Shown: positions 452-24,449 of the stretch, in pieces
Layout: each line of letters opens with the position of its first letter
Numbering within the stretch: the first letter of the stretch is position 1
Source: an uncultured Clostridia bacterium
GTDB taxonomy: Bacteria > Bacillota > Clostridia > UBA1381
DNA length: 41,090 bases
Reading direction: 5' to 3'
NCBI GenBank assembly: GCA_944390955.1
Contig: CALXRY010000107.1
Coordinates: forward strand, 1 to 41,090
Notes under the pieces: model-generated
Told to the model about the DNA's origin: nothing
What the model saw: only the letters and a program-made list of their open reading frames with translations
Databases searched by the model: none
Made by a program: the position numbers and the translations under genes

Positions 452-3313
<2,862 letters not shown>

Positions 3314-5593: not shown

Positions 5594-8188
5594 TTAATCT
5601 CCGTCAATTTTTGTATTTGCAGTATGAAAGCCCGCTGTATGTATAAACATCTTCTCTCCACATTTTAGATGCAGCTTGACTCCGAACGGGACTTTTGTAA
5701 ATGTACACAGTTTTCCGTATTTTTTCTCACATTTTATATATATTGAGCTGTTGGATATCGGTATTTCGATCTCAAAATACAGAAGCTCCGAAGGCATCCT
5801 TATATCCGCACCATACTCCTCATTTGGGATTATTGTTTTGAAACCTGCAAGGCTTTCATAAAGCCATATTCTCGCCGCAGCATACATAGGATGATTATGA
5901 GAATTCATTCCGCCATGCTTTTTCAGTTCAAAACGCTCCCATATTGTAGTAGCACCATTTGCAATCATGTATCCCCATGATGGATATCCGTCTCTTGTCA
6001 TGAGTCTCCATGCAGTATTGGTATATCCGTACTCCGACAACATTTTTAAAAGCATGGGTGTGATTATATTTCCTGTCTGTATGCGGTACCCTGCAGATAC
6101 CGCTGCTTCATTCATAAGTTCTGCAGCACGGGCTGTATATTTCTCCGGAATGATCCCGATAAACAGCGAAAAGGCCTGGCATGCTTGAGATCCGTTGTAT
6201 ACAGCTGCCGTTCGCTTATTGAACCATTTGTCGATGTATGCCTCCTTAACGTGTTCCGCAGCCAGTCCGAACCTTTCCACATCCTCAGTTCTTTCAAGTA
6301 GTTCAGCAAATTTCACAAGCAATTTATAATTAAGGTAGTGGCATCCCGTCGATACCATGATCCCAGGTATAAACAATGATTCGGCTGCCTGTGTATCATA
6401 TTCTTCAAGTTTTTTCTTATCTGAACCCGCCATCACCGACACCGAACGGCAACAGTCCTCCGGTCCTGCCCAGTCCCCGTAATATGAATACTCAACTATA
6501 CCTCCCTGCGCCCTTGATGCAAGATAGTCATTCCATTTAATAAAATTACCATAATATTTACTTATAATTCCTGTATCGCCGGTTTTGATATAATATTCAT
6601 ATGCCGCAATCAGGAATGAAGAACAGACCGGATCGGCAGGTCGCTCTCCATACACAAACGGTGCCGTACATGTTATCCTGCCTTCCTCGTCCTGTTCATT
6701 CACAATATCGCCTATTATCTTTTCAAAAAGCCTTTCTGTATCAAATTCATACGGCATTGCAAGAAATCTCACAGTGGCATCATTCAGCCAACCCATCCTC
6801 TCATCTCGTTGAGGACAATCACTCGCAATTGAATGAATATTGTTCCGCTCTGTGCGAATAGCGCACGCGTAAAACTCGTTTACAAGTGCGTTTCCGCATT
6901 TAAAAAAGGCCTTATTATCTATGTCCGTATAAAAATTCAGCGCCGTAACTTCGATATCACAGGCAGATGCTCCCGTTATCTCCAATGAGGCATATCTGAA
7001 TCCGTGATATGTAAAATATGGTGAATAATCTATTGTTCTTTCGCCGCTTCTGCTGATATACGTGTCTTTAGCCTCAGCACTTCTAAGAGATGCGGTGTAC
7101 AGCTCACCGCTTTCGTCTGTCTCCTCGGCATGGCGTATAACAATACGCGCCCCGTTTGGGCTTTTTATTATCCCTCTTATCCTCACCGTCCCCGCAAAAT
7201 TTTCACCAAAGTCATATATTATTTTTCCGTTTAAACGGTAGCTGCGGATCGGCTGTATCTCGCGTTTTATACATACAGGCTCTACGGTCTGGGGTACGAG
7301 CCTTCCCGCAGAAAAATCTGAATACCGCACCCCTTTTCCGTTTTTTAATCCGAGAGTACACCATGTACTGTCTTCCCTGTTTTCATTATACACCTCGCCA
7401 TTGAACAGATGTGCGTATTCAGCTGCTCCGGTGTCGTAGCTCCAGCTGTCGTCGGTAGGCACACATATCTCAGTGCCGTCATCAAAATACATCGTAAGCT
7501 GCGCATTAAGACATATGTCCCCCATAAATTCTATTTTCCTATCTGTCGATAAATTATTCAGATAGCGTCCGTAATTTTTTCTCCAACCGCTGCCTACGGC
7601 GATACCTATGATATTTTCCCCGATTTTTAATGTATTCGTATTCAACACAGACGTAATATACTGACATTCTTTTCGGTAATTTGTGAACACAGGTTCAAGT
7701 CTGAATGGATCTGTCTCTTGACCGTTGATATATGCCTTATCAAGCCCAAGACCGCAGTGATAAAGTACTGCACGCTTTGGCAGCTCTTTGATTCTAAAAT
7801 GCTTTGTAAAATACAGCACGCTGTTTCCTTCGTCCTTTTCTGCGCATATCCATCGTCCCTGCCATTCATCGAACAGCGCCGTTTTAAAATATGAGTAAGC
7901 TTTTCGGCTTTTTCTGTTCATATTATCGGTCAGTTCGATCTCCCAATTAATATACGCACCGGATGGAAGCGTGCTTCCGCAGTATACTGCTTTCATTTTA
8001 TGTGTTTTAACAGATCCGCTGTCCCACAGTATCTTATCTTCAAATCTGACAATAATGCGGTACTGTGACTGATACGAGCCGTCGTAATCCGTCACCGCGC
8101 TCCAAGTAAATACCGGATGCTGATTTTCCGATATCGCATACCGTTCCTTCGTATAATTCACCTTTAAATTCACAGGCTTAAATTTCAT
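5594..8188 (-). CDS. Alpha-L-rhamnosidase, GH78
   Basis: An 864-residue GH78 enzyme that releases alpha-linked L-rhamnose, typically from rhamnogalacturonan or rhamnosylated plant glycosides. The N-terminal beta-sandwich domains lead into an (alpha/alpha)6 barrel carrying DCPQRDERMGWLNDA, the GH78 block that contributes catalytic acidic residues. A second acidic block, ATTIWERF, lies further on. There is no signal peptide, so it is cytoplasmic. I place the start at the ATG at 8188 (MKFKPVN), which has AAGGAG seven bases upstream. A longer reading from an in-frame TTG at 8206 would bury that ribosome binding site. It is first in the GH78-AraC-GH2 operon, behind a strong promoter. Confidence 0.93.
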   Translation of the reverse strand: MKFKPVNLKVNYTKERYAISENQHPVFTWSAVTDYDGSYQSQYRIIVRFEDKILWDSGSVKTHKMKAVYCGSTLPSGAYINWEIELTDNMNRKSRKAYSYFKTALFDEWQGRWICAEKDEGNSVLYFTKHFRIKELPKRAVLYHCGLGLDKAYINGQETDPFRLEPVFTNYRKECQYITSVLNTNTLKIGENIIGIAVGSGWRKNYGRYLNNLSTDRKIEFMGDICLNAQLTMYFDDGTEICVPTDDSWSYDTGAAEYAHLFNGEVYNENREDSTWCTLGLKNGKGVRYSDFSAGRLVPQTVEPVCIKREIQPIRSYRLNGKIIYDFGENFAGTVRIRGIIKSPNGARIVIRHAEETDESGELYTASLRSAEAKDTYISRSGERTIDYSPYFTYHGFRYASLEITGASACDIEVTALNFYTDIDNKAFFKCGNALVNEFYACAIRTERNNIHSIASDCPQRDERMGWLNDATVRFLAMPYEFDTERLFEKIIGDIVNEQDEEGRITCTAPFVYGERPADPVCSSFLIAAYEYYIKTGDTGIISKYYGNFIKWNDYLASRAQGGIVEYSYYGDWAGPEDCCRSVSVMAGSDKKKLEEYDTQAAESLFIPGIMVSTGCHYLNYKLLVKFAELLERTEDVERFGLAAEHVKEAYIDKWFNKRTAAVYNGSQACQAFSLFIGIIPEKYTARAAELMNEAAVSAGYRIQTGNIITPMLLKMLSEYGYTNTAWRLMTRDGYPSWGYMIANGATTIWERFELKKHGGMNSHNHPMYAAARIWLYESLAGFKTIIPNEEYGADIRMPSELLYFEIEIPISNSSIYIKCEKKYGKLCTFTKVPFGVKLHLKCGEKMFIHTAGFHTANTKIDGD

Positions 8189-8211
8189 GTATTTTCTCCT
8201 TCGCAATTATA

Positions 8212-8234
8212 GGATTGAGCCGTTAGCTCAATCC
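8212..8234 (-). promoter_or_regulatory. Leader stem-loop upstream of GH78
   Basis: A perfect 9-bp inverted repeat, GGATTGAGC / GCTCAATCC, with a 5-nt loop. It lies between the predicted transcription start (about 8243) and the GH78 ribosome binding site. No T-run follows on the minus strand, so it is not a classical terminator. A 5' stabilising hairpin or an operator dyad are both possible. Confidence 0.6.
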
Positions 8235-8249
8235 CATAGCTTGCGTTTG

Positions 8250-8278
8250 ATTATAACATATTTTTTTATTTTTGTCAC
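8250..8278 (-). promoter_or_regulatory. Sigma-A-type promoter of the GH78-AraC-GH2 operon
   Basis: Read on the minus strand, GTGACA at 8278-8273 (5/6 to TTGACA), a 17-base spacer and a perfect TATAAT at 8255-8250. It sits just after the stop of the preceding minus gene, so the rhamnosidase operon has its own start even though it follows the secreted-protein array in the same direction. Confidence 0.8.
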
Positions 8279-8285
8279 TTGGATC

Positions 8286-10028
8286 TTATTCCAATATACT
8301 TACATTTTTAATCGGTTTCATTTGATCCAAACCATCCCAAACAAACCCCTTAATGATCAGGTCTGCAGTATCGTATCCGAATGACTCCATGTCGATATTA
8401 GCTGTATATCTTGTGATTTCATCTTCGTTTTTAATACCGTCAGCCTTGGCACAGACAAGCATCTCGCCGCTTTCTTTATTATAAAGAGCAGCTATAACAG
8501 CTATGTTCTGTCCGTCATATCCCGATACCGCAGGCACATCTGCTTGGAAGCTGACGTTCCCCTCAGCCTCCGACAATGCTGTGATTTCATTCCCCTCGCT
8601 AAAGAATCCGGATGTTATTTCCGTTTCTGTAATTGAATACGTTTTTGATGCGAGTCCATCCTCGGAAACTGCCTTAACGTACATTCCGCTCGCAAGATCG
8701 TCGCCGCTCAAGGCTTTCGTCCCATCCGAATAAAAAACAGCAAGCTTTGCATCCGTTTCTATACTGTCTGTAATCTCTTGTACAGACATATGTCCCGAAT
8801 ATGTTATTTCCGCATAATCATTATCTATTCTAACCTTTTCGGATGCCATAGATATGTCGGCATCAATAAGGCTGTTATAGCTCTGCGGCGTATAAATCTT
8901 CACATCAGAGAGCCGTACTGTCAGAGTTTCATCAGAGCTCCTCGGAACCGTTCCTACCATAATCGACGATATTCCGCCGCCGTATCGTACATCGTTTGAC
9001 CGTGTGCCTATTTTGAAGCTTCCATCCTCTTGAAGGGCAACTCTGCCGTCTGCGTGTCCTATTGTTTTATCGTTGGGAAATATTTTAGAGCCATTTACAT
9101 AAACACCGTCTATGTATCCCTCTCTGCCTCCCTTGACAAATCTCTGTACAATGCTTACGGTGTACTTCTTGCCTGGTACCCATTTAAGCCCGGTTTCCTG
9201 AGCAGGAATGCTGCTTACGCCGTAATTTGTATACATACCGCCAAGCTTTATATCGCCCGTTTCCGTAAAATGAACAGAATTTGCCGCATAGGGCAGCTCT
9301 ACACTGTAGAGCGCGTTATCCATGCCCGAATCACCGCGCGTTATCTTGTATCCAGCATTCCTTATCGGAACGTTATGAAAAACAGAAACTGTTCCAAGTT
9401 TATCTGCTTCAAACGTCACCGTTGTAACGATCGGCTTGCCCGACAGTGCATCACTGCCTATTGACGCCTGAAGCTCTGTTGAATAATTTGTACTCTCGGT
9501 GTAATGAGAACGGAGATACGAATAATTGTCTGAGCTATTTTCAAGCAAATATACAGGCTCCCCATTTTCCGTTATTTTCGTCTTATTCGTATTGATATTA
9601 TCCTCATCATACTTTATATCACTTCCAAGCCTGCCGTATGTCTGAACCATAGCAAATCCGGCCGCTTCGATATCGCCGCTTATAAGGGTGCTATCCTCAA
9701 GCTGTGCGCCATTCTCTTCAATAGGATTGTACGCATATTTGAGTCTGATGCTGTAGAGTTCTCCAGACGGCGACATCAAGTAAGTATTATCCGTCGCATA
9801 AGCATTTTCAGGCATTTCGCTTCCGTCAATATTTACCACGGTCATTCCATTTGTTGCAAAGTCATCCAGGAAATCCTGCACACTTGTAAGCGGCTCAACA
9901 CCGGATACAGTCATTGTTTCGTTATCCACAGTATAGATATCCGACTCCGGTAAATCCTCCGCATATACTGCCGTAAAACCTCCTGTGATCATTGCGGCGC
10001 TGAGCATAGCCGACAATAATTTTTTCAT
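8286..10028 (-). CDS. Secreted protein of unknown function
   Basis: A 580-residue exported protein with a signal peptide (MKKLLSAMLSAAMITGG... cleaved near AVYA-ED). I do not recognise an enzymatic domain. The region around residues 230-380 has the alternating beta pattern of a concanavalin/LamG-like sandwich (GREGYIDGVYVNGSKIF, SDVKIYTPQ). The last 80 residues end in IKGFVWDGLDQMKPI, which resembles a C-terminal module I recall from many clostridial secreted glycan-active proteins. The start is ATG at 10028, with AAGGAGG nine bases upstream; an ATG nine bases earlier abuts that site and is unlikely. It is the last gene of the secreted array (36-bp gap). A structural or carbohydrate-binding role at the surface is inference. 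Confidence 0.75.
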   Translation of the reverse strand: MKKLLSAMLSAAMITGGFTAVYAEDLPESDIYTVDNETMTVSGVEPLTSVQDFLDDFATNGMTVVNIDGSEMPENAYATDNTYLMSPSGELYSIRLKYAYNPIEENGAQLEDSTLISGDIEAAGFAMVQTYGRLGSDIKYDEDNINTNKTKITENGEPVYLLENSSDNYSYLRSHYTESTNYSTELQASIGSDALSGKPIVTTVTFEADKLGTVSVFHNVPIRNAGYKITRGDSGMDNALYSVELPYAANSVHFTETGDIKLGGMYTNYGVSSIPAQETGLKWVPGKKYTVSIVQRFVKGGREGYIDGVYVNGSKIFPNDKTIGHADGRVALQEDGSFKIGTRSNDVRYGGGISSIMVGTVPRSSDETLTVRLSDVKIYTPQSYNSLIDADISMASEKVRIDNDYAEITYSGHMSVQEITDSIETDAKLAVFYSDGTKALSGDDLASGMYVKAVSEDGLASKTYSITETEITSGFFSEGNEITALSEAEGNVSFQADVPAVSGYDGQNIAVIAALYNKESGEMLVCAKADGIKNEDEITRYTANIDMESFGYDTADLIIKGFVWDGLDQMKPIKNVSILE

Positions 10029-10064
10029 ATTGATCATCCTCCTTGCTTTATGATAATAAAATAT

Positions 10065-10445
10065 TTAGTTCTTTATGGATAGAATCATGTCCATCAGCAT
10101 TTGACCGTCAGCTACAGATGCTACGATCACATGCAGGTATGAATTGTTGACATCCGGTAGGAACGTATTATAATTTATGTCGGTGCATTCTCCCTCTGTA
10201 TGTATTATTTCATCTGCTATTACAAAGATATCTGCTCCGGCAGAATCGCATATGGTTATTCTTAGCCTCACCTCCTCAAGCCTGCCGACGCTTTCGCTTA
10301 TTCTGTATCGTTCCCACGAGCTTATGCCGGACTTTGATATCTCGCTTCCATATTCATGATATATCTCGACCTGCGCCCCTATCGTTTCCGGAAAGCAAAA
10401 TAGCACCGCTGCCGCAAAAACTGCCGTCAAATTTCTTTTATTCAT
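10065..10445 (-). CDS. Small secreted protein of unknown function
   Basis: A 126-residue protein with a signal peptide (MNKRNLTAVFAAAVLFCF, cleavage near IGA-QV), leaving about 100 mature residues. The mature part shows beta strands and resembles a single beta-sandwich module (RLEEVRLRITICDSAGADIF). No family is recognised. Its ATG overlaps the end of the upstream gene by 8 bases, which argues for translational coupling and supports it as real despite a weak ribosome binding site. It may be a detached module or accessory subunit of the larger secreted neighbours. Confidence 0.65.
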   Translation of the reverse strand: MNKRNLTAVFAAAVLFCFPETIGAQVEIYHEYGSEISKSGISSWERYRISESVGRLEEVRLRITICDSAGADIFVIADEIIHTEGECTDINYNTFLPDVNNSYLHVIVASVADGQMLMDMILSIKN

Positions 10446-13074
10446 ATATTATCACGTCCCGTACATTTCCGTACCGTGTTGTCAGAACTGCGCGGTCATA
10501 TTCAAATTCCAAACTATCGAGAGAAACTGCATCGGTAGTTTTTGATACCGAATGATAAATATATGCTTTTGTATTGGAATCAGTTGGGAATACAGAGATA
10601 CTGTTGCTTCCGGCTATTTTAAGCTTCACTACGGCTGACGGATACTCCGGCGACCTATAGATCAAACATGCACTGCCATAAGAATTTGACCATCTGCTTT
10701 GTGCCGCCTGTGCTGACGACCCCAGCTCAACTGCCTCGATTATATACTGCGCCGGCCTGTCCTCCGTATATTCTGAATTTTCAAATATGGCAACACTGTC
10801 GTTATAGCCTTCTGTGTACCGTTCTCCATCTATGCTGAATATACGGCGGTATTTTTGTATGACTCCGTCGTAGGTCCACAAAGTCAGCACATCGCCGCTT
10901 CTTAATTTTGATATATCTACGCCTTCGGCCGCAGTAAATGAGGCTGCCGCTCCATTATACATCCCCACTAATTCCGGACGGACTTCGCCCTCGTCTTCAT
11001 CATACACTTCAACTATCCGATCAAGAACGAATGCCTGAGTCAAGTGCTGCTCATCATAAACAGAATTCGTCTCAGATTTATGCTCGTATACGCAGATATC
11101 GGCCGTATACATATTGTCGGAATTGTATATTGCCAGATAAGAAGGCTTTGATGATGCCGCTATTGGACGGTCGGAAATATTTTTTATCCGAATATTCTTT
11201 TCGTCCACGCTCCCGTCTGTATTCAGCGGAACATCTATCACAGTACCGTCCGACGTCATATTGTATTTATAATTCACGGTCATCCCGAAGCCATTATATA
11301 CGCATACAACATCGCCTTCAAAAATCTTATTAAGCGTAAGAGGCTGAGACATATCAGCCTCCGGCTCAGGCATCTCTCCCGTTGGTACATATACTGCGCT
11401 TATCTCGCCGGACGCGTTTATTCTGTATGAAATAAGCTGCGGCTTGAAGGCTCCGTTTCTCTGCATTTTACTGTAAAGCTCGTCGTAATCCCCCCTGATG
11501 TCGTTTATTGTGAACATGTCTGCAAAGGCTATCGTTTGCGTGATATTGTTCAGAGTAACTATTTTGGCATATGCCTTATCCTCATTTTCATCATTAAAAA
11601 TCTTTGCAGCATATCCATAAAGCTGCTCCGGCTCGCTGTATTCACTTACCAGCCCGACAGCATAGCCGTAATGATCCAGCCCTACCATAGCCTTGACACC
11701 TGTATGTATCTGTGAAAAGTCAAAGCTTTTTATTGTTTTTACAGTTTCCTCTGCGACCGTCATCGAAAAATCATCCTCTGAAAAAGCCGATACTGTTCCA
11801 TTTAATCTTATGTCTGAAACAACGGCTTTTATAAATTCGCCGTCACGGCTCCTCCCGACAGCTATAACGTCGCCCTCGGAAACATATGCAAGCTTTATCC
11901 GTTTCCCGTTCTTTACTATCTCTACCTTTGGGATATCCTGCTCTGTATCGAGCTTGATACTGCTCCATGTAAGTGAATCGAGCACAGTGCTGTTGTCAAG
12001 ATTGACTTTAGCAGCAATTATATACTCGTAGTGCTCGATCATTACAACATCATAAAACGAATCATTATCGGAATCCGTAAATGATATTTTACCGTTATCA
12101 CTCATTATATCATCTTCTGTGATTTCATAACAGTTCCGCCCATTGTATATAAAATCTGCATACTGTGATATTCTTATTATTTTTGCCGCACCGTTCTCTA
12201 TATATTCCACGCTTCTCAGATCGGTGCTCACATCTGTGACTGAATCAAAAAGCACTTCCTTTATATTTGTCTTTGACGTATTTACAATTACACTTATCAA
12301 TGTATTTTCATACTCGTCTGCACGGTAATAATATCTTACACTGCTTCCGAGAAGCTCTGAATAATCAATATCTCCCGACAGATATATATTGTCTATGCCG
12401 CCGCTGCCGCTTATTATGATTTTTCCTGTCCCGGGAGCGCTCCTTCCTCCTGTTACAGTCTCGCCCGCAGCAGTAATTGTTCCTTCATCTCTATATACGT
12501 CAAATATCCTGTTCATCAAAACCTCATCGCTTTTTTGGATCCCGCTCTGCGCAGTCAGATCATAGCACGGCAGTTCAAGCGCCGCGATCAGGATCTCCTC
12601 AGCAGCTTCAATCGTCACTGTGTCACTGCTCCTCAATCCGTATATATTCGCTTTATCTATTATATTTCCCCCTTCATAATAAAAAAACGAAGCATCATTG
12701 AATCTGTCATAGCCCGCAGCACGTAAGATGACCGTTTTGAATTCCGAATAAGTGACGCCGCTTGACGGGTCAAATATCAAATCACTTCTGCCGAGCATAA
12801 TGCCGCTTGCGGCTGCCTCTGCAATATAATCCTTAAACGGATTATCGTCAGTAACATCAAGAAACATGCATTCTTTTTCCGACAGTATATGTCCCGTCAG
12901 CTTCAACGCAATTGCCGCTGTTTCGCCTCGCGTGATATTTCCATCATCACCGTAGCTTTCATCAAGGATAGAAAGCTCGTATAATATATCATACTTTCCA
13001 TCTGCATATGCCGACACCTCAAATGCCGCTGCCGAGAGCAAAACAAGACATAAGATCGCTATCTTTTTCAGCAT
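10438..13074 (-). CDS. Large secreted protein with N-terminal SLH-like repeats
   Basis: An 878-residue exported protein (signal peptide MLKKIAILCLVLLSAAAFEVSAYA). Residues about 28-125 look like two S-layer-homology-type repeats: NITRGETAAIALKL, then FLDVTDDNPFKDYIAEAAASG, IFDPSSGVTYSEFKTVILRAAGY. Such repeats normally bind secondary cell-wall polymer. The remaining 750 residues are beta-rich and acidic, unknown to me, and contain several strand-rich repeats (for example around DSLTWSSIKLDTEQ and KIFEGDVVCVYNGFG). The start is ATG with GGGGAGG upstream, only 3 bases after the preceding stop. A wall-attached scaffold or glycan-binding role is inferred from context. Confidence 0.75.
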   Translation of the reverse strand: MLKKIAILCLVLLSAAAFEVSAYADGKYDILYELSILDESYGDDGNITRGETAAIALKLTGHILSEKECMFLDVTDDNPFKDYIAEAAASGIMLGRSDLIFDPSSGVTYSEFKTVILRAAGYDRFNDASFFYYEGGNIIDKANIYGLRSSDTVTIEAAEEILIAALELPCYDLTAQSGIQKSDEVLMNRIFDVYRDEGTITAAGETVTGGRSAPGTGKIIISGSGGIDNIYLSGDIDYSELLGSSVRYYYRADEYENTLISVIVNTSKTNIKEVLFDSVTDVSTDLRSVEYIENGAAKIIRISQYADFIYNGRNCYEITEDDIMSDNGKISFTDSDNDSFYDVVMIEHYEYIIAAKVNLDNSTVLDSLTWSSIKLDTEQDIPKVEIVKNGKRIKLAYVSEGDVIAVGRSRDGEFIKAVVSDIRLNGTVSAFSEDDFSMTVAEETVKTIKSFDFSQIHTGVKAMVGLDHYGYAVGLVSEYSEPEQLYGYAAKIFNDENEDKAYAKIVTLNNITQTIAFADMFTINDIRGDYDELYSKMQRNGAFKPQLISYRINASGEISAVYVPTGEMPEPEADMSQPLTLNKIFEGDVVCVYNGFGMTVNYKYNMTSDGTVIDVPLNTDGSVDEKNIRIKNISDRPIAASSKPSYLAIYNSDNMYTADICVYEHKSETNSVYDEQHLTQAFVLDRIVEVYDEDEGEVRPELVGMYNGAAASFTAAEGVDISKLRSGDVLTLWTYDGVIQKYRRIFSIDGERYTEGYNDSVAIFENSEYTEDRPAQYIIEAVELGSSAQAAQSRWSNSYGSACLIYRSPEYPSAVVKLKIAGSNSISVFPTDSNTKAYIYHSVSKTTDAVSLDSLEFEYDRAVLTTRYGNVRDVIIYE

Positions 13075-13077
13075 ATA

Positions 13078-15789
13078 TCATTCCTCCCCGCTACAAGCAT
13101 CCAAAAGCCTGTTTATCACAACTGCCGCCATGGCTCTCGTCGTATCAGCTTTTGGGTCAAACGCGCCATCGTCCGTTCCATTCATGATTCCGGCATTACA
13201 TACGCGCCGCACGGAAGCTTCGGCATAATCGGAAATATTGTCATAATCATCAAAAATTACGGCTGTGTCATCTGTGTTTATTCCCAAATATTCAAGCAGT
13301 CTTGCGGAAATCACTGCCATATCTTCTCTTGTAATGCACATCTTGTTACCAAAGTTTCTGTCATCTATGCCTTTTACTATCCCCAATGCCTGTGCAACAG
13401 CAGCATACGGATAGCTCCAGTCCGCGTTGTCAAGATCATCGTATACAATACCTTTTACATCGGCCTTCAACCCAAAGGCGCAGACGATCATTTTTACAAA
13501 TTCATTTCGCGTAACAGCTCTGTTCGGTTCAAACTCCCCATCGCCTGTCCCGTTTATTATATTTTTTGATGCAAGTGCCATAATTGCATCAGCCGCCCAT
13601 TGGACCTTCTCAATATCATTAAACTCGACATCCTGTCCGTGATCAGGAGTTTCCGTCGCCTCAGGTGTTTGTGAAGGCATCGGTATATTCGGAATCACCT
13701 GAGGCGATGATACTCCGCTTCCGCCTCCGGAATTTCCGCCTCCGCCCGAGACCGGCCGTCTTGTTGGTACAGGCGTTTCACGAACTTCATCTGCAGCCTC
13801 CGATACCGCATCACTTAGCGCATCAATACTTTCCCACTGCTTCCCCGCAACAGCCGTGCCAACGATCCCCATCTGATAATCCGTAAGCTGTGAAACGTCT
13901 ATATCAAGAAGCTCACTGTACTCAGAAAGCAGCTCCTTTATATCTTCTCTTGTAGATGTATTGAATCTTATCAGGGCAATCGTCTCTGTCATACTTTTCT
14001 CAAATTCAGAAATACTTTCATACGGCAGCTCCTCGGCAATCTCATTCAGCAGCAGGCTGCTGTCGCTGAGCTTTTTATAATCCTCCCTATTCCCCAGGAG
14101 ATAGCTGCTTTCCGCCCTTGCCTTTATATCTTCAGCATCGCTCTTGTCAGCGGCATTAAGTCCGGCAAGAGCGATCGATTTATGGTACAGCTCTTTTATA
14201 TCATCGATAGTTTCTGCTCCGTCCTTAACAAAAATCCCGGCTGCTTCCTGCGAAAAGCCGTCATTTTCAAAATCAAATTTAAAGAGTACGTTGTACTTTT
14301 CAAGCATGTTTTTAACCGATGATGCATCAGCACCATTTATTTCGGCAATCGCTGTTTCTATCTGTCCCTTGCCGAAAACGTATCCTATCGGATCGCTGTA
14401 TGCCGGAGATCCGTTTTGATATATAACTGAATTAAAAACCGGTCTGAATACAGCGCGTATATATTTGCCTTCACATTCGTTCCCTATAATATATTTACTG
14501 CCGGATGCTTCGCTTATTTCAGTATATACCCCGTCCGGGGTATCGGACATCTCCCATGTTATGCTCATGCTGCTCAACTCAGCCGTACCCTCATACGTAT
14601 AGTCCGCCGTTATCTCCGCACCGATAACCGGATCGCCATTCAGAGGAGCAGGTATGATAGTATTTTCACCAAACACCTCGTATATTTCCTCATCGGTATA
14701 TATGCTCTCCACCTCTTCATGAGTGAGCAGCGATTCAAGGCTCTTTACTATATTTGCTCCGCATTTTTCAAGCTTTTCGTTTCTGAAAAACGAATCTTTC
14801 AGATAAAAAACCGGTCTGACAAGATAATATCCATTTGCGCCGGGGTTTGTTGTATCACCGTTTTCAGCAAACCCAACAGCCAGATGTGCATAATGGCCGT
14901 TTTCGCCTACGCTCCTTGATGTTCTCAGCCAATATCCGTTTCCGTCCGCAGATGCATCAACTCCTATTTTAGATACATACTGCTTATATTCCGTTGCCGA
15001 CGGCAGTGCAATAGGAGCGATTGTTATCGTTTCCTCTGTGAACCCTTCGTAATTGCACGGTTCTGTATTCCACAAATGCATCACGTCCATATGCTTAAAC
15101 AGTTCCTCCGGAAGCTTTGAAGAAAAATTATTAAATGCAAATTCATTTGTCATATAGTAAGCCAGATTATTCCTGTCGTTGTCATCATATTTTGAAATGG
15201 CAGTCGCATATGTTGCATCCGCACGCATATCTATCTTTTTCGCTCCGTAATAATCCTTTGCCATCACAAAAAACATAGTCTCTCCGTTGCTGTCAGTCCG
15301 GTCAAGTATTATAAAATCCTTACCTCCGATCCTGAATGTGTCCGCCGGATCCGTTTCCGGCTTCGCACCCAAGCCTATAAGCTTGTTCTGCTTCTGCAGT
15401 CCAATATACACCGGATTATCTTTGAGTTCCTTAAGCTTTTGAGCTGCCTGCGTAACGTTTTCATCCAGCTCCTCAAAGCTCGAGAAGCCTCTGTTCCATG
15501 CTTCGAGAATTATTACACAAAGTTCGGAATCTGTATACGCACCATTTCCCCAGAAAGAAAAACTCGGTAAATTTGCCCTGAACAGAGCACGAAGTCCCTC
15601 AAGCTCCACATCCGCAAATTCACGATACAGCGTTTCTGCTTCGGATTGGGGTGCTGCATCACTGAAGGGATCCGCATCTGCCTGAGACTCTATTGTCTGT
15701 ATAGAATCGTACGCATATATCTGTTCGGGACATATCATCATTGCAGCAAACGACGCCGTCATGATTATTGATATTATCTTTGATCTCAT
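13078..15789 (-). CDS. Secreted DUF6273-like protein with three C-terminal SLH repeats
   Basis: A 903-residue exported protein. After the signal peptide (cleavage near residue 26), residues about 150-335 form a DUF6273-like domain with NNLAYYMTNEF, ALPSATEYKQY, GYWLRTSR and LVRPVFYLKDSFF; the fold recalls the FGE/C-type-lectin group. An Ig-like domain follows (about 385-470: SITWEMSDTPDGVYTEI). Next are helical repeats of about 65 residues (about 475-690; each with a pattern like LLSEYSELLDIDVSQLTDYQ), a Ser/Gly/Pro linker (about 695-730), and three SLH repeats (about 733-900: EFEPNRAVTRNEFVKMIV and similar). SLH repeats anchor proteins to the Gram-positive wall. It is a paralogue of the upstream gene over the N-terminal domain. 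The function of the DUF6273-like domain is unknown. Confidence 0.85.
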   Translation of the reverse strand: MRSKIISIIMTASFAAMMICPEQIYAYDSIQTIESQADADPFSDAAPQSEAETLYREFADVELEGLRALFRANLPSFSFWGNGAYTDSELCVIILEAWNRGFSSFEELDENVTQAAQKLKELKDNPVYIGLQKQNKLIGLGAKPETDPADTFRIGGKDFIILDRTDSNGETMFFVMAKDYYGAKKIDMRADATYATAISKYDDNDRNNLAYYMTNEFAFNNFSSKLPEELFKHMDVMHLWNTEPCNYEGFTEETITIAPIALPSATEYKQYVSKIGVDASADGNGYWLRTSRSVGENGHYAHLAVGFAENGDTTNPGANGYYLVRPVFYLKDSFFRNEKLEKCGANIVKSLESLLTHEEVESIYTDEEIYEVFGENTIIPAPLNGDPVIGAEITADYTYEGTAELSSMSITWEMSDTPDGVYTEISEASGSKYIIGNECEGKYIRAVFRPVFNSVIYQNGSPAYSDPIGYVFGKGQIETAIAEINGADASSVKNMLEKYNVLFKFDFENDGFSQEAAGIFVKDGAETIDDIKELYHKSIALAGLNAADKSDAEDIKARAESSYLLGNREDYKKLSDSSLLLNEIAEELPYESISEFEKSMTETIALIRFNTSTREDIKELLSEYSELLDIDVSQLTDYQMGIVGTAVAGKQWESIDALSDAVSEAADEVRETPVPTRRPVSGGGGNSGGGSGVSSPQVIPNIPMPSQTPEATETPDHGQDVEFNDIEKVQWAADAIMALASKNIINGTGDGEFEPNRAVTRNEFVKMIVCAFGLKADVKGIVYDDLDNADWSYPYAAVAQALGIVKGIDDRNFGNKMCITREDMAVISARLLEYLGINTDDTAVIFDDYDNISDYAEASVRRVCNAGIMNGTDDGAFDPKADTTRAMAAVVINRLLDACSGEE

Positions 15790-15813
15790 TGTACTATCTC
15801 CTTTCTGCGGCTA

Positions 15814-17901
15814 TTATTTTTCAATAACACTTATACGTGCGGACGAGCTTCCGCTCATGCTCCCCGCCTGTGCATTGTGCAGAGTTATCCGGCAGTCCTC
15901 CTCAACGGCCAGTTCCACCGCTTCAAACGCTCCAGAACCGGAATAAACGCCACCGACGCGCGTGCCTACTATCATATTCGCAGAATCATCAATATACGTT
16001 ATATACTGGTCAGACGCCGCTGTAAACTCGCCTTCGGCATCATAAGCGATACTGTATGAATAATTCCCCGCAGTACCTTCCAACCATATTTGATAAGTCA
16101 TGCCTTTATGCGCATTGAACGTTACTGTTTCCAGAGGATCTTCAAGCGTATTTGAAATTACAGGCGCATCGATGAAAATAGGATCACTGTATACTGTATC
16201 CCCTTTGATGTCTGCATTATACGCATATACGCCAAGCCTTATCCATCTTCCCATATCCGCCTCGGACAAAATATAGCTTGCTTGGTCTGATGTATAAATA
16301 TCTCCAAAAACACCGTTTTCGCTATTGCTCCTCTGCCATACAAATGCAACATCTGCTGATCTTCCGCCAATCGCCTCATATACGCCGCAGATCTCGCTTC
16401 CCGGCTCGGCCTCAATGCTGTTCAGCCTGCCGCTTATATTGATCTTGTTATCTGCATTTGTAATATCAAGTGATATATCTCCTCCGCCTATTATAACATT
16501 TTTTATTTCCGGCAGGTCACTTATCTTAACCGCTTCGCTGTAATTCATTTCTCCGATTACCGAATTCGATTTTTTCATCGGAGCAACACCTACTCTTAAA
16601 TATTTTCCCGATTCATTTCCGCTCACGGTATAATATCTTCCGTCGGCATTTTCGATGTCGGTAAAATTCTCATTGTCATCAGATATCTGCCATTGGTATA
16701 CTGTACCGCTGCACGCATCATTGTTTGCATCATAATAATGGTATATCGCCTCCAGTCTCTCTGATGCTGACGGAACGCCGTTTAGCCTAATATTCTCTGC
16801 AGCCGGTTTTGATATATCCTGCACCGGAACGTTTAACGCCTTGGCTGTATACGTTTTACCTGCATCTGTTTTGTTTGCCGGTGTGACCTGCATAGTTATA
16901 TAATATCCTATATCATCACTGTCCGGAACATATACAAGCGAATTAGCACCCATAATGGCAGACCACGGTCCTTCGCTGCTTTCCCCCCTCAGCCATTGTA
17001 TCACCGTTCCGCTTTCAGACCCCGACCCGGAAGATATATACATATATGAACCCTTCATTTCCTCACCGACTATTCCCCGCCCGCTCACAAACAAATTCTC
17101 AATCTGCGGTGCGATCGATGAATCGAGAAGCTCATCAAGCTCAGAATCCGTGTACAATACTGTCTGCTGTAAAATATCGCTGTGCTTCCTTATGGCCGAT
17201 ATTACATTATCTCCCGTCTTTGAAATATTGATCTTTACTTTGTTGAAAAAATCATGAGGCAGATAGAATGCCGGTCTTACTCCGCTTGCTCCGTCAGGTT
17301 TTCCGTCGCCTGTAAGTCCTGTATTCGGCGGATTGATGCATGCAACAAGCGGATTCCCCGTTACGCCTCTAGTCGTTCTCAGATACCAATACGCATAGCT
17401 TTCATCATCCGCATAGCCGAATTTCCCGTTATATTTTACCCATTCTGTTTGAGAAAGCAGTACGACCTTACAGGTTATTTCGTAGTCCTTGTTCCATTCA
17501 AATGACGGTCCGCCGCCCTCGGTAAGATATGTATGCTCCATAAGATTGTCTATGATCTCCTGAGGGAGTCTTTTTATCGATGTATCGGTCAAAAAGTCAT
17601 TATTAAGCCAATATCCTATATTATTTTCATCCTGAGGATCAAACGGTGAAATCCCATCAGGATCAAATTCTCGTCTTGTATAATACTTTTCCGTCAGTAC
17701 AAAAAATCCGTCCTCCGTATCATCAAGAAGAATGAACCTATCGTTGCTGCCGTCAAGCTGGAATATATTCTCTATCGGAGCTTTTCGCTGCGAGTCTGCA
17801 GGAACGCTTATTATTCTTTCTACGTTTGCTGCATCTGCACCTATATTACCAAGAATACAGCATGCCGCAGCAGCACATATAAATTTAAGAAAACATTTCA
17901 T
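15814..17901 (-). CDS. Secreted DUF6273-like protein with Ig-like repeats
   Basis: A 695-residue exported protein (signal peptide MKCFLKFICAAAACCILG). Residues about 50-220 are a DUF6273-like domain with NNIGYWLNNDFL, LLSQTEWVKY, YWYLRTTRG and GVRPAFYLPHDFF, matching the order of motifs in the downstream paralogue. Three Ig-like repeats follow at about 265-360, 368-460 and 465-578, each with a V(I/Y/F)QW core and an IGYYI/SGKYLR/MGRWIR strand. A C-terminal beta module (about 590-695) could be carbohydrate binding. It has no SLH or dockerin, so attachment is unclear. The start ATG overlaps the upstream stop (ATGA), with GGAG inside the upstream gene, indicating translational coupling to the dockerin protein. 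Confidence 0.82.
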   Translation of the reverse strand: MKCFLKFICAAAACCILGNIGADAANVERIISVPADSQRKAPIENIFQLDGSNDRFILLDDTEDGFFVLTEKYYTRREFDPDGISPFDPQDENNIGYWLNNDFLTDTSIKRLPQEIIDNLMEHTYLTEGGGPSFEWNKDYEITCKVVLLSQTEWVKYNGKFGYADDESYAYWYLRTTRGVTGNPLVACINPPNTGLTGDGKPDGASGVRPAFYLPHDFFNKVKINISKTGDNVISAIRKHSDILQQTVLYTDSELDELLDSSIAPQIENLFVSGRGIVGEEMKGSYMYISSGSGSESGTVIQWLRGESSEGPWSAIMGANSLVYVPDSDDIGYYITMQVTPANKTDAGKTYTAKALNVPVQDISKPAAENIRLNGVPSASERLEAIYHYYDANNDACSGTVYQWQISDDNENFTDIENADGRYYTVSGNESGKYLRVGVAPMKKSNSVIGEMNYSEAVKISDLPEIKNVIIGGGDISLDITNADNKINISGRLNSIEAEPGSEICGVYEAIGGRSADVAFVWQRSNSENGVFGDIYTSDQASYILSEADMGRWIRLGVYAYNADIKGDTVYSDPIFIDAPVISNTLEDPLETVTFNAHKGMTYQIWLEGTAGNYSYSIAYDAEGEFTAASDQYITYIDDSANMIVGTRVGGVYSGSGAFEAVELAVEEDCRITLHNAQAGSMSGSSSARISVIEK

Positions 17902-20153
17902 CGGTTCTCACTCCTGACGTATTCCTTCATGACCAATTCCAAATCGGTCTCATCTATAACGCTGTTTCTATCCAGATCGGCACGACAAGTATATACGTCG
18001 ATCTCAGTCCCGACTTTGACTCCCGTCTCCGCTATGTCAGCTATTGTAATACTCCCGTCAGCATTCACATCGCCTATCGCATGCGGACCGCAAACAACGC
18101 TCCATTCACTTCCATATGGCACAGCTCCCATATCCGTTGTGCTCTCTTCGCTCCAGTCAAGCTGTATGCCGGCATCTCTTGCAATACTGCTTTCAGTAAG
18201 TTCAAAATTTGCATTTTCCCAATCAACAAAACCGACCTTATCGATATCATTGACATAAAAGCCGCCGTTCTTAACTATCGGTTCATGGACATATACTTCC
18301 GATGGAGCTTCATCAGTTGCTGTGCCGGGATCTCGGGCAACATCAAGGCCGGAGATAAGCATATTATGATCAAAGTAAATCCCTCTTGCCTCAGTAAATG
18401 CCTGCCCCTTTTTAAAGCCGCCCTTGAATGTTCCGTCTTCGGCACAAACCACAACTTGGATTATATTATTGTAAAATTCTATATTGCTTATATTATCATT
18501 ACCTCCGCCAAGCAGACCTACATTTTCTTCAAAGGCCATATTGGGATAAATAAACGTATTGTTCCATACGCGCATACCGTCATCCTCCAACTTTACGGAA
18601 TCAACGGGATTTCCCGTCTGCGGATCTATCGGATAGCTGTGCATCCACGGGAACGACGACCACTGATCTGCCGATGCGCCGAATTTGAACAATCCCGAAT
18701 ATCTCGGTGAAGGTACTTTTTCACCGTTCATATAGTTTTGTGTATACCACCAGACCCAGCCCTCTTCAGGTGTATTCCATATAATATTATGATGGAAGTT
18801 TATGTTTGTCGGAAACGGGAACGCAGCAAGCGGCTGCCACGATATCGGATCCATCATCCCGCAGAATTCATTGTAGCTTACCTCCCATCCATTTGTATTG
18901 TCCTCAAATTCTATAGCATTGTCAAAGCAATTTTCAAATTTATTCCCATACACCGTTATATTCTTTGCCGGGACCTGACGCAGCTTCCCGTCCTCAGAAT
19001 ACCAATAGCTGAAATTGCAGTATGATGAAATCGCATCAAGCAGATCATGGAAATAATTATTCCGCAGTGTCCAGTTCTCACCTATTCTGACGGCCAGCCC
19101 GCCACCCTCATAGTTACAGGTCGTCCCGTTCTTTGAATGCCAGTAATAAAGCGCATTATATACTCCATCAGGCATTCGCCTGCTTTCGTCATCCTGGCAT
19201 TCAATCATCATCTCAATCCCATCGGTGTATATCGGAAAATCAGTATAATCGCAGTATTCGATAGTTATATTTTTTGAAACATAGGGATCGTCATGGCCTC
19301 TTGCCCCGCCGCGCACACCCTCACGGCAGCCTATAAACCAGCAGTTGCTTACGGTCACATCATCGCACCTTGCCCATACCGCTGCAACCGCGGGCATCTC
19401 AAATGTGATGCCGTTGATAAATACATTGGCCGAATTTTCCGTTGTAATTCCAAAAAGATAGCTCTCGTTCCCTATAACAGAACCGTTCTGACCTGTTATA
19501 GTTCTTCCGTCTATCTTTATTGAATCCAGTACACCCACACGCGGAACACATATCTGTGCCTCATTCGGATCGGATGAACAGTATTTTTCATCTTCTCTCA
19601 ATCTTATATACATTTTTGAATTCTCGGAGTCATAATAATATCCCTGCTTATAGCCGACCATATTATTTGCCTCGTTTGCGGTATACGTTTTAAGCCCATT
19701 CAGAGTCATATATTCAACTACCTGCGTTCCGTCTGCTGTCATTCTGTAAACCTGATAATCAAACGGTATGGAATACAGACCCAGTTCAGAATCTTCAAGC
19801 GTCCATTTTATTGATTTATTTTTTATATCTTCCCGCGCCCCGCTTATAATGACCTTATTTTTGCCATGGTTCGCAGCCTTGAAAACAATCGGCTTATCCT
19901 TTGTTCCGCTTGTGCGAAGGGTCACGGTCTCATAATAGGTCCCGTCTTCTATGATGACCGTATCACCTGCCACTACGGAATCGGCTGCCTTCTGGATAGT
20001 CCTGAACGGCATATCGGCCGTTCCCAAATTTGAGTCGCTGCCAATATCGGAGCTGACATGATATTCTGCCGCATATACCGCAGCACCCGCAGCCGTTACC
20101 ACTACCATAATCATTAACGCAAAAATAATACGAAATTTTCTATTTGCTTTCAT
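17898..20153 (-). CDS. Secreted right-handed beta-helix protein with dockerin
   Basis: A 751-residue exported protein (signal peptide ends near AVYA-AE). It opens with the pattern of polysaccharide-lyase-type beta-helix proteins: YHVSSDIGSDSNLGT, PFRTIQKAADSVVAGDTV and DGTYYETVTLRTSGT. A long right-handed beta-helix follows (about 30-680) with many Asn-rich turns (NITVYGNKFENCFDNAIEF, VSNCWFIGCREG). Residues about 690-745 are a type-I-dockerin-like pair of calcium loops (GDVNADGSITIADIAE and ADLDRNSVIDETDLELVM), so it may dock to a cohesin scaffold. Activity could be pectate or rhamnogalacturonan lyase, or glycoside hydrolase; I cannot assign catalytic residues. It follows the ABC permease by 32 bp in the same operon. 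Confidence 0.85.
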   Translation of the reverse strand: MKANRKFRIIFALMIMVVVTAAGAAVYAAEYHVSSDIGSDSNLGTADMPFRTIQKAADSVVAGDTVIIEDGTYYETVTLRTSGTKDKPIVFKAANHGKNKVIISGAREDIKNKSIKWTLEDSELGLYSIPFDYQVYRMTADGTQVVEYMTLNGLKTYTANEANNMVGYKQGYYYDSENSKMYIRLREDEKYCSSDPNEAQICVPRVGVLDSIKIDGRTITGQNGSVIGNESYLFGITTENSANVFINGITFEMPAVAAVWARCDDVTVSNCWFIGCREGVRGGARGHDDPYVSKNITIEYCDYTDFPIYTDGIEMMIECQDDESRRMPDGVYNALYYWHSKNGTTCNYEGGGLAVRIGENWTLRNNYFHDLLDAISSYCNFSYWYSEDGKLRQVPAKNITVYGNKFENCFDNAIEFEDNTNGWEVSYNEFCGMMDPISWQPLAAFPFPTNINFHHNIIWNTPEEGWVWWYTQNYMNGEKVPSPRYSGLFKFGASADQWSSFPWMHSYPIDPQTGNPVDSVKLEDDGMRVWNNTFIYPNMAFEENVGLLGGGNDNISNIEFYNNIIQVVVCAEDGTFKGGFKKGQAFTEARGIYFDHNMLISGLDVARDPGTATDEAPSEVYVHEPIVKNGGFYVNDIDKVGFVDWENANFELTESSIARDAGIQLDWSEESTTDMGAVPYGSEWSVVCGPHAIGDVNADGSITIADIAETGVKVGTEIDVYTCRADLDRNSVIDETDLELVMKEYVRSENR

Positions 20154-20185: not shown

Positions 20186-21082
20186 TCAGCCTTTTACTCC
20201 TCCGATACTTACTCCACCGATAATATGCTTTGACAACAAAAAGAATATTACAAGCGGCGGGACTATCGAAAACATCATCAACACCATATATTTATCCGCC
20301 GAAAGCTGAGTCTGCATATTATAAAGCATTACTGCCACCGGCTGAAGCGATTCCTTCTTTAGTATCATATACGGCCAGAAAAAATTCCCCCATGCCCCAT
20401 TGATAGCAAAAATCGAAACAACAACTATTATCGGTTTGCTGAGCGGTAATATAATCCTTAAAAATATTCCCGGCTGACTGGCTCCGTCCACTCGTGCCGC
20501 TTCGACAATCGAAGTAGGTATTGAATTGAAGAAATTCTTGAACAGCAGTATATCAAATGCGCTTATTGCACTCATCATGAACAGCGGTATATATGTGTTT
20601 GTAAAATTTATTCCCAGGATCGGAAAATTTGTAAACTCAACATAAAGCGGTATCATATTCATAGAAGCCGGCATGAGCATTGTAAAAAATATGATCTTAA
20701 ACAAAAAATTTGATCCCAGCGGTTTTACCTTTGAAAATACATACCCTGCCATGCCGTTGAAAACTACGGAACATATCCATGTTCCGATAATTATTATGAC
20801 TGAATTTTTAAGATATTTGCCGAAGCTCAGCATCCCCCATACCTCAACGATCTTATGAGGCTGAAAGCTTCTTGGGATAATAGTCGGCGGTATCTGCAGA
20901 AATTCTTCTGTGCTTTTAAAAGCCGACATGAAAATCCAAAGTGTCGGAAAAATCGTTGTAACGCATACGGCACAGAGAATTAATAAAACACATATGTATA
21001 TCAGCTTATATTTGGGATTTTTCATATCCATATCATTTATCAATCCTGTAAACAAGCTGTTGTCAATCGCGCGCTTTTTCAT
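20186..21082 (-). CDS. Carbohydrate ABC transporter permease (MalG/UgpE type)
   Basis: A 298-residue inner-membrane permease of the sugar (CUT1) ABC importer family, with about six membrane segments. The cytoplasmic EAA loop reads EAARVDGASQPGIFLRIILP and contacts the ATPase. It ends in the typical VSIGGVKG. I start it at the ATG at 21082 (MKKRAID), with GGAGGTGAT seven bases upstream; the longer in-frame reading begins inside the upstream gene. It pairs with the permease directly upstream (23-bp gap). No ATP-binding subunit is present in the window, which is usual in Firmicutes, where a shared MsmX-like ATPase serves several importers. Confidence 0.93.
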   Translation of the reverse strand: MKKRAIDNSLFTGLINDMDMKNPKYKLIYICVLLILCAVCVTTIFPTLWIFMSAFKSTEEFLQIPPTIIPRSFQPHKIVEVWGMLSFGKYLKNSVIIIIGTWICSVVFNGMAGYVFSKVKPLGSNFLFKIIFFTMLMPASMNMIPLYVEFTNFPILGINFTNTYIPLFMMSAISAFDILLFKNFFNSIPTSIVEAARVDGASQPGIFLRIILPLSKPIIVVVSIFAINGAWGNFFWPYMILKKESLQPVAVMLYNMQTQLSADKYMVLMMFSIVPPLVIFFLLSKHIIGGVSIGGVKG

Positions 21083-21105
21083 TATATCACCTCCGGCCGT
21101 ACGCC

Positions 21106-22020
21106 TCAATCATTCATTTTCTTTTCAAGCACCAGATAGACGCCTGTGATCATCACAAGTATAATAAAAGTTATAACACCTGTTGCCATAGCCTTATCAA
21201 ACTGGAAATATTCAAAGGCATATTTATAGGCAAGCAGTGCCAATGAAGTAGAGGCTCCGTTAGGTCCCCCTCCTGTCATGGCAAGCGGCTGTTCCATTAC
21301 CTGGAACACTCCTATGATCTGTCTTATAAACAGCAGTAATGCTATCGGATATATTTCAGGAAGCATAATATATCTTAAACGTTTTCGCATACCTGCGCCA
21401 TCTATCTCTGCCGCCTCATACAATTCCCTATTTATCCCCTGAAGCGCCGCCAAATACATCAGAGTGCTGCCACCGAAGCTCTGCCACGTCATTGTTATAA
21501 CTATCCATAATATTGATGTCCCTGCATCCTGAAGCCATGGCTGAGGATCTATTCCAAATGATGCTAATATGGTGTTCAACAGCCCCGACTCACCGGGCAG
21601 ATACAGGTAATACCACAGCATATATACTGCGATACCCGGCAAAACCACCGGCAAATATATTGCAGTTTTGAAAAAAGCACGGATATGGCGAACTTCATTA
21701 AGCAGTATTGCGACTATGACCGGCGGCAAAAATCCGACTAAAAGCGAAAATCCCGTGTACTTAAAAGTATTAAACAGTACTTTTGTAAAGTTTGTATCTG
21801 TTATAATATCCTTATAATTCTCCAATCCGACAAATTCAAGCATTGTACTGCCCTGCATATCGAACAGAGACTGGTAAAATCCCATAACGATAGGACGCCA
21901 TATTATGAAATAAGCAAAAACGACAGTAGGAAGAAGCATGAGCCACCCGGCTATATTCTTCATGACCATCGGCTTAAGGCGTTTTATTGACAGTTTTTGA
22001 TTTTCAAGTTTTGTTTTCAT
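21106..22020 (-). CDS. Carbohydrate ABC transporter permease (MalF/UgpA type)
   Basis: A 304-residue permease with about six membrane helices, the partner of the following gene in a CUT1-type sugar importer. The EAA loop is EAAEIDGAGMRKRLRYIMLP. The FVGLENYKDI segment and MTGGGPNGAST near the fifth helix are characteristic of the MalF/UgpA group. The start is ATG with AAGGAG upstream. It is separated from the binding-protein gene by 83 bases that hold a strong stem-loop. The substrate is not deducible from sequence; an oligosaccharide from rhamnogalacturonan or a related glycan is suggested by neighbours. Confidence 0.93.
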   Translation of the reverse strand: MKTKLENQKLSIKRLKPMVMKNIAGWLMLLPTVVFAYFIIWRPIVMGFYQSLFDMQGSTMLEFVGLENYKDIITDTNFTKVLFNTFKYTGFSLLVGFLPPVIVAILLNEVRHIRAFFKTAIYLPVVLPGIAVYMLWYYLYLPGESGLLNTILASFGIDPQPWLQDAGTSILWIVITMTWQSFGGSTLMYLAALQGINRELYEAAEIDGAGMRKRLRYIMLPEIYPIALLLFIRQIIGVFQVMEQPLAMTGGGPNGASTSLALLAYKYAFEYFQFDKAMATGVITFIILVMITGVYLVLEKKMND

Positions 22021-23804: not shown

Positions 23805-24377
23805 ATGAAAAGAATAAAAGATAAGCAGATTCTTGTAGGAGCGGATTTTGCCGGGTTCCCGTTAAAGGAGGCTGTGTGTGAATATCTGAGAAACAAGGGC
23901 TGGACAATCACGGATATCGGAGTGCGGGCCGATTCTGATCCAAACGATACCGATTTGATGTTCCACCGCATAGGCCTTCGTATCGGTTCGATGATTGCCG
24001 AGGGCGAATTTGAACGTGCACTGGCATTTTGCGGAACAGGGATGGGGATACATATAGCTGCCAGTAAATGTCCCCACGTACACGCAGGAGTTGTGGAAAG
24101 CGTGCCGTCAGCTTTAAGAGCAATAACAGGCAACGGAGTAAATGTCCTTGCTATGGGAGCATTCTATGTTGCTCCGCAGATGGGCTGTGATATTGCCGAT
24201 GCATACCTCAATGCCGAGCTCGGAAGCGGATATGAATGGTGGCACAATTTCTATGAATTCCACAAATTGGCTATAGATGAATTAGAGGAATTTGACTATG
24301 AGGAATATAAGCAAAACGGCTTCAAGGTACATCATCTCGGCGATTATCCTCTTAAGCTTGAAGTAAAACCCGATTGA
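23805..24377 (+). CDS. RpiB/LacA/LacB-family sugar-phosphate isomerase
   Basis: A 190-residue cytoplasmic isomerase of the RpiB/LacAB family, which interconverts aldose and ketose (phosphates). It shows GADFAGFPLKEAV at the N-terminus, the signature FCGTGMGIHIAASK (Cys76 is the likely proton-transfer residue) and NVLAMGAFYVAPQ. It is about 40 residues longer than typical RpiB; the extra C-terminal tail (EWWHNFYEFHKLAIDELEEF) recalls the longer members of the family. Family members with non-ribose substrates include DhuI of streptococci, which acts on 4-deoxy-5-keto-uronate from unsaturated uronides. With a GH88 in the window, that role is possible but unproven. It starts at ATG with GAAAGGGG upstream and is divergent from the importer. 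Confidence 0.85.
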   Translation: MKRIKDKQILVGADFAGFPLKEAVCEYLRNKGWTITDIGVRADSDPNDTDLMFHRIGLRIGSMIAEGEFERALAFCGTGMGIHIAASKCPHVHAGVVESVPSALRAITGNGVNVLAMGAFYVAPQMGCDIADAYLNAELGSGYEWWHNFYEFHKLAIDELEEFDYEEYKQNGFKVHHLGDYPLKLEVKPD

Positions 24378-24449
24378 CTTACAGTCTGTGACGGCATATA
24401 ATTCAAATAAACCATTCTATATAATTATTCTGATAATGGAGATGATATC

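Follow-up and report, generated by a model that had tools for sequence, protein, structure and literature searches.

A recurrent pair of SLH-anchored proteins in a polysaccharide utilization locus of an uncultured Clostridia bacterium

Gram-positive polysaccharide utilization loci (gpPULs) have been defined by the joint presence of a polysaccharide-degrading enzyme, a carbohydrate transport system and a transcriptional regulator (PMC5320581). The gpPULs of Roseburia and Eubacterium rectale described there have clustered enzymes, an ABC importer and an AraC-type regulator, and the main text of that paper makes no mention of SLH domains or S-layers. Here, we analyzed a DNA stretch of 41,090 nucleotides (the window) that is an entire contig (CALXRY010000107.1, or C107) of an uncultured gut Clostridia bacterium, whose genome assembly (G000) comprises 2.79 Mb in 234 contigs. 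The window contains a locus with glycoside hydrolases of families GH78 and GH2, a solute-binding protein (SBP) of the SBP_bac_1 family with two BPD_transp_1 permeases, and an AraC-type sensor (3314-5587). Because enzyme, transporter and regulator are all present, this locus is a gpPUL under the above definition. It has the clustered enzymes, importer and regulator in common with the Roseburia and E. rectale loci, but also has a DUF6273 protein, a beta-helix with dockerin-like motifs and an SLH-anchored pair that includes a member of an unnamed family. A first-pass annotation of the window knew of no described system with this gene set. The general kind of locus is in fact known, but the pair is described neither in the main text of that paper nor in any other paper found; searches of a literature collection that lacks most subscription papers yielded no SLH pairs for gpPULs or Monoglobus. 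What is new is the pair, at least one member of which comes from a family without a name.

The pair is encoded by adjacent genes within a minus-strand run of twelve genes that extends from 23489 to 452 with intergenic gaps of at most 83 bases. The downstream gene (10438-13074) encodes an 878-residue protein, with an SLH triad followed by a body of putative tandem OB-like barrels, that belongs to an unnamed multicopy family, designated CORE. The family was defined by a profile built from 24 relatives (A1) and its body-only version (A3). The upstream gene (13078-15789) encodes the partner, a representative of proteins ending in an SLH triad (X-SLH). It consists of a DUF6273-homologous region, an Ig-like domain, a helical module, a Pro/Gly linker and three SLH repeats (PF00395, E = 3e-28). 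The first-pass annotation had singled out a block of six genes for exported proteins; the unit that recurs is instead this pair.

Pairing was scored in four genomes (G000, G246, G172 and G050), in regions that represent the best-scoring CORE copies and under-sample weak ones. An X-SLH gene lies immediately upstream, on the same strand, of 58 of the 78 CORE copies, with gaps of -4 to 131 bases. Six further copies have it immediately downstream and one is fused to it, so that 65 of 78 are beside or fused to X-SLH; four are located at contig edges, and nine are unpaired. Three of the nine belong to a single-copy subfamily (see below), and two have an X-SLH gene one gene further upstream. As a control, 20 regions of G246 and G172 that lack CORE were examined, and 2 of their 284 genes follow an X-SLH gene (Fisher P = 8e-56). 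Natural X-SLH/CORE fusions occur in the window's own genome (L129:1036-5026, on contig G000:C205) and in another genome assigned to its genus (L281:8828-14449, on G050:C7).

Partners vary in their heads. In 46 of 81, a protein of approximately 500-580 residues carries a signal peptide, an Ig-like domain, the helical module, a glycine-rich linker and the SLH triad, while the other 35 have different or larger heads and reach 2878 residues. A profile of the Ig-like domain and helical module matches 46 of 46 short partners (its own building set), 13 of 35 long ones, including that of the window, and 3 of 23 unpaired X-SLH proteins, two of these three being the near-adjacent cases. The window partner shares the helical module with partners of about 550 residues from other loci (hidden Markov model E = 7e-19; residues 480-900). 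A minority of heads carry Big, F5/8, CBM11, CBM4_9, LamG or lyase N-terminal domains. Within genomes, distances among CORE bodies correlate with those among the N-terminal parts of their partners (r = 0.41; 0 of 2000 permutations), which is no weaker than the correlation of CORE bodies with their own SLH parts (r = 0.32). The two proteins thus share a history.

Strict pairing in a fixed order, the fusions, the conservation of a helical module adjoining the partner's linker, and a conserved CORE beside a variable head would also be expected if CORE were an assembly or display scaffold. In this case, CORE would receive its cognate X-SLH protein, possibly along with further secreted products of the operon, and position or fold it, leaving all substrate recognition to the partner. 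We consider this improbable, as CORE bodies are themselves very diverse, the helical module is undetectable in 22 of the 35 long partners, and single-copy CORE proteins persist without a partner.

In eight genomes from four families, the number of CORE copies with E values of 1e-20 or better was 21, 40, 11, 6, 31, 31, 18 and 23; in the window's genome, 15 long copies were evaluated. The family was detected in 102 of 391 genomes of the class, strongly in approximately 18 families, and outside the class there was a weak, partial match in only five others of a 399-genome spread over the phylum. Identity between CORE bodies is only about 20-25%. One subfamily is approximately single-copy, is 40-58% identical between families and usually lacks a partner; it looks like a housekeeping member. 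Its carriers include Ructibacterium gallinarum DSM 107454, Acetivibrio sp. MSJd-27, Lachnospiraceae bacterium MD329 and Monoglobus metagenome-assembled genomes (MAGs). In one MAG, a second, divergent CORE (L192:2593-5574) lies upstream of the single-copy member at a distance of approximately 4.4 kb.

CORE proteins could be characterized further by structure prediction. Beyond the SLH region, the window CORE matches no Pfam or NCBIfam family, and a PDB profile search returned SLH domains only. The SLH-like N-terminus noticed in the first-pass annotation scores below the PF00395 threshold (18.1 bits), yet the AlphaFold2 model of the protein (pLDDT 74, good across most of residues 30-750) superimposes on the SLH triads of SpaA and Sap (TM-score on target 0.58-0.70). 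A model of the single-copy member (74 sequences; pLDDT 87.6) also has an N-terminal SLH triad, with a TM-score on target of up to 0.82 against SpaA-SLH bound to secondary cell wall polymer (SCWP). The body has no overall match in the PDB (Foldseek); its local matches are to OB-fold chains, i.e., ribosomal protein S1 (probability 0.82) and cold-shock domains, with low global similarity. Profile self-comparison revealed an internal repeat with an offset of about 225 residues (89% probability). With moderate confidence, these models suggest a body in which OB-like barrels are strung together. A DDB1-type beta-propeller was also considered and rejected, because the matches, low in probability and of the string-of-sheets type, had TM-scores of about 0.1 or less and an rmsd above 24 A.

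In addition to the two SLH triads, the genome encodes the SCWP pyruvyl transferase CsaB (TIGR03609, 284.7 bits; curated cut-off 213.1), which is evidence for the gene rather than the polymer. With CsaB in the genome, the triads could be held by a pyruvylated wall polymer. The first-pass annotation had suggested a wall-attached complex; wall attachment is supported by these data, and the complex itself is a prediction. Triads in both proteins together with CsaB would also fit CORE and X-SLH being alternative subunits of an S-layer or surface lattice, with each locus, once switched on, giving the cell a different coat and no direct capture of glycans being involved. The tandem-barrel architecture without an active site, the presence of up to 40 copies, and the retention of single-copy CORE across families, often next to another SLH gene, are consistent with such a coat. 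We regard it as unlikely, though less so than the display scaffold, and these two are the main rivals of the glycan-capture function favored below. Many copies are situated inside glycan-enzyme loci that have AraC regulators of their own, a minority of partners carry CBM, F5/8, LamG or lyase N-terminal domains, and the range of X-SLH sizes (approximately 500 to 2900 residues) is unusual for lattice subunits.

The genomic neighborhood of the pairs was examined with Pfam counts for 128 operon neighbors (G000, G246 and G172), which are qualitative since only the top 25 families per scan were considered. The neighbors include polysaccharide lyase family PL8, heparinase II/III, GH88, GH94, GH127 and sialidase-like/BNR proteins, as well as CBM9, CBM11, CBM4_9, CBM96, F5/8, beta-helix and AraC families; a control sample of 64 proteins yielded housekeeping families. 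The copper amine oxidase N-terminal domain (PF07833) recurred in 9 of the 128 neighbors. For 34 of 104 copies, an SBP_bac_1 gene lies no more than about 11.5 kb away (17.9 expected under random placement, P = 9e-5), and for 52 of 104 it lies no more than 16.5 kb away (24.6 expected, P = 5e-9); a permease gene occurs within five genes of 31 of 78 CORE copies versus 16 of 284 control genes. An earlier neighbor count, based on home-made SBP and permease profiles and chosen regions, gave a stronger contrast and was not used for the effect size. The link to importers is therefore real but partial, with about twofold enrichment, and the Pfam-based SBP_bac_1 count rules out an importer that is always attached to the pair.

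In the window itself, the pair is embedded in the block of six exported proteins (8286-20153). All six open reading frames were recovered; each encodes a signal-like hydrophobic stretch at its N-terminus, by a heuristic criterion, and is preceded by a purine-rich ribosome-binding site. They are packed head to tail directly behind the importer with gaps of 36 bases or less and two overlaps, as the first-pass annotation had it. In the 5' to 3' direction, 32 bases separate the second permease from the beta-helix gene, which overlaps the DUF6273 gene by 4 bases; gaps of 24 and 3 bases follow on either side of the X-SLH gene; CORE overlaps the gene for a 126-residue protein by 8 bases; and the latter is 27 bases from the gene for a 583-residue protein (36 with its alternative start at 10028). 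A 79-base gap between this last gene and the GH78 gene contains a strong promoter-like match (8250-8278, minus strand; GTGACA-17-TATAAT, TG before the -10 box, 11 of 12 bases, an extended -10), identified by consensus match alone. Since this site is found in the gap, GH78-AraC-GH2 is perhaps a separate transcription unit, and the importer and the six-gene block may form another. A perfect 9-bp hairpin lies 3' of the candidate promoter in the GH78 leader (8160-8286), and this promoter/hairpin site is a possible operator of the AraC-type regulator. Weaker promoter-like matches are scattered over the region at near-chance frequency and are uninformative.

Conservation of the whole block was analyzed in 69 other genomes of the family (70 with that of the window). 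Nearly the same order is found in one of them (G003), from another genus. One G003 contig carries SBP, permease, permease, beta-helix and DUF6273 genes before it ends, and a second carries CORE, a gene for a 124-residue protein and two homologues of the 583-residue protein; the X-SLH gene would fall in the unbridged break between the contigs. Identities to the window proteins are 63% for the SBP, 69 and 64% for the permeases, 49% for the beta-helix, 39% for the DUF6273 protein, 35% for CORE and 42% for the 583-residue protein. A genome of a third genus (G009) has the importer, a shorter beta-helix and a piece of GH2 without the wall pair, and close relatives of the beta-helix occur in G003 and G009 only. 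Because the gene order recurs in G003, the arrangement is more than chance, and the six-gene block is a real unit, but patchy like most PULs. A widespread full block is ruled out, with the full order in G003 and part of it in G009. Likewise, the proposed welding of the block to a sugar importer holds for the window and G003, where packing is tight, but not for pair loci in general (52 of 104). Importers near only part of the pair loci, and large, repetitive, non-catalytic surface proteins, might point to a system for adhering to mucus or to insoluble particles of plant material, with an importer co-transcribed merely through a common plant cue. We find this very unlikely given the tight packing with the importer in these two genomes and the frequency of lyases and glycosidases among the neighbors.

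Taken together, the data lead us to favor, by a modest degree of belief, the idea that the block makes up the surface and import half of a gpPUL and that the pair is a locus-specific, wall-anchored platform for glycan capture. This idea fits best because the two proteins are anchored to the wall at opposite ends, combine a variable head with a string of barrels, are produced jointly and occur in glycan loci. In the window, GH78, GH2, the AraC regulator and the importer bear out the glycan-utilization setting proposed earlier. In the proposed mechanism, the N-terminal triad would fix CORE to pyruvylated SCWP with its OB-like barrels projecting outward, and the C-terminal triad would fix the partner, whose helical module and flexible linker would carry the head specific to the locus (DUF6273 and Ig domains in the window). 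Made together, the two would probably act as a complex that keeps the glycan close to the beta-helix and to other proteins of the surface. The oligosaccharides set free would then pass to the binding lipoprotein and the permeases and be finished inside by GH78 and GH2. As these enzymes have no signal peptides, rhamnose- and galactose-bearing oligosaccharides would be imported before their final breakdown. The enzyme families also suggest that the substrate is probably a rhamnose- and galactose-containing pectic (rhamnogalacturonan I) or arabinogalactan-like glycan. The physical complex, glycan binding, the substrate and the direction of flow are predictions from sequence, as is the earlier proposal that the block may bind or cut a plant polysaccharide and pass fragments to the importer.

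Several observations weigh against this function. Approximately half of the pair loci have no nearby SBP_bac_1 gene, to which contig ends contribute, and the proposed substrate rests on two cytoplasmic enzymes. No member of the CORE family has an identifiable sugar-binding or catalytic site, and the model of the window CORE is weak in its last 130 residues. Co-divergence does not prove contact because pairs may duplicate as a unit. Finally, the single-copy CORE is conserved across families, usually without a partner, and its ancestral job may therefore be structural.

Other components of the locus are consistent with known families. The sugar-binding lipoprotein of the CUT1-type importer (22104-23489; PF01547, E = 4e-28) is closest in the PDB to MalE3 and an arabino-oligosaccharide-binding protein. 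Permease 1 (21106-22020; PF00528, E = 8e-19) is 69-71% identical to its G003 and G009 counterparts, and permease 2 (20186-21109, with a possible start at 21082; PF00528, E = 5e-13) is 64-70% identical. No importer ATPase gene was found within the run. GH78 (5594-8206; PF17389, E = 2e-73) is an alpha-L-rhamnosidase and GH2 (452-3304; PF02836, E = 2e-78; PF02929, E = 7e-60) a beta-galactosidase-like enzyme, both exo-type. The membrane-bound sensor between them has an AraC-type DNA-binding domain (PF12833, E = 6e-19) and is the predicted regulator of the locus. A divergent RpiB/LacAB-like isomerase and a GDSL esterase (23805-25184) probably belong to the same utilization locus; the isomerase is 82% identical to a G009 copy that adjoins the G009 version of the importer. 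A large GH30-like protein (38539-41088), which also has LamG and atrophied Ig domains, starts beyond the contig end.

Among the remaining exported proteins, the right-handed beta-helix (17898-20153; PF13229, E = 5e-7; PF22842, E = 4e-7) has C-terminal dockerin-like calcium motifs that match weakly (22.2 bits against a cut-off of 22.9, and 25 bits in a second scan); the genome has five dockerin matches. Its N-terminus resembles GH120 xylosidase 3vst and rhamnogalacturonan lyase 5olq over the first 80 residues only; naming a substrate from this protein was therefore abandoned, and it is an unproven candidate for a polysaccharide-degrading enzyme. The DUF6273 protein (15814-17901) passes the Pfam cut-off (PF19789, 26.6 bits against 23.5) and has three Ig-like repeats (IG_AIR9; PF23197, E = 5e-17). 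Pfam does not detect DUF6273 in the X-SLH partner, but residues 151-450 of the partner are homologous to this protein (31% identity, E = 1e-22), and the annotation of two DUF6273-like paralogues, one SLH-anchored, is thus correct. Three tandem regions homologous to these are present in another protein of the genome (G000:C231:470-3912). The 126-residue protein (10065-10445), whose place is taken by the 124-residue gene in G003, has no Pfam or NCBIfam match. The 583-residue protein (8286-10037), of unassigned function, matches no Pfam family above the cut-off and no PDB entry.

How the pair relates to known surface systems can now be considered. CORE has an N-terminal SLH triad in common with the S-layer proteins Sap of Bacillus anthracis and SpaA of Paenibacillus, but its body, the predicted string of OB-like barrels, has no match among solved S-layer bodies. 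The SLH-anchored glycoside hydrolases of Caldicellulosiruptor, as cited in PMC9554435 (reference 108), are another case of SLH anchoring of glycan-active proteins; unlike those enzymes as cited there, the window CORE and its partner form a fixed pair and carry no recognized catalytic domain.

A functional parallel is SusC/SusD of Bacteroidota, also a locus-specific, multicopy, co-transcribed surface pair with fast-diverging paralogues in glycan loci. The Clostridia pair is not homologous to it: no Pfam match to a TonB-dependent transporter or a SusD-family lipoprotein was found in the nine block and importer proteins scanned, and membership in that system was rejected. It also differs in lacking an outer membrane and TonB transport, in having both members anchored to the wall, and in its association with importers, which is enriched only about twofold. 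That X-SLH and CORE are nevertheless a Gram-positive functional counterpart of SusC/SusD, i.e., a swappable two-protein module whose copies are each matched to the glycan of the locus they occupy, is a tentative proposal that we hold less firmly than glycan capture as such. If it is true, the pair represents a new wall-anchored PUL architecture, with diverged copies that number up to about 40 per genome, in approximately 18 families of mostly uncultured Clostridia, and the novelty of the system would increase should the pair prove to bind glycans as a complex. Capture of long polysaccharides at the wall of Gram-positive gut bacteria before ABC import is far less understood than the Sus system of Bacteroides. 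The pair would provide both a concrete complex and a searchable PUL marker in Monoglobus-like and related Clostridia, a lineage that includes cultured members, among them R. gallinarum DSM 107454 with its single-copy CORE.

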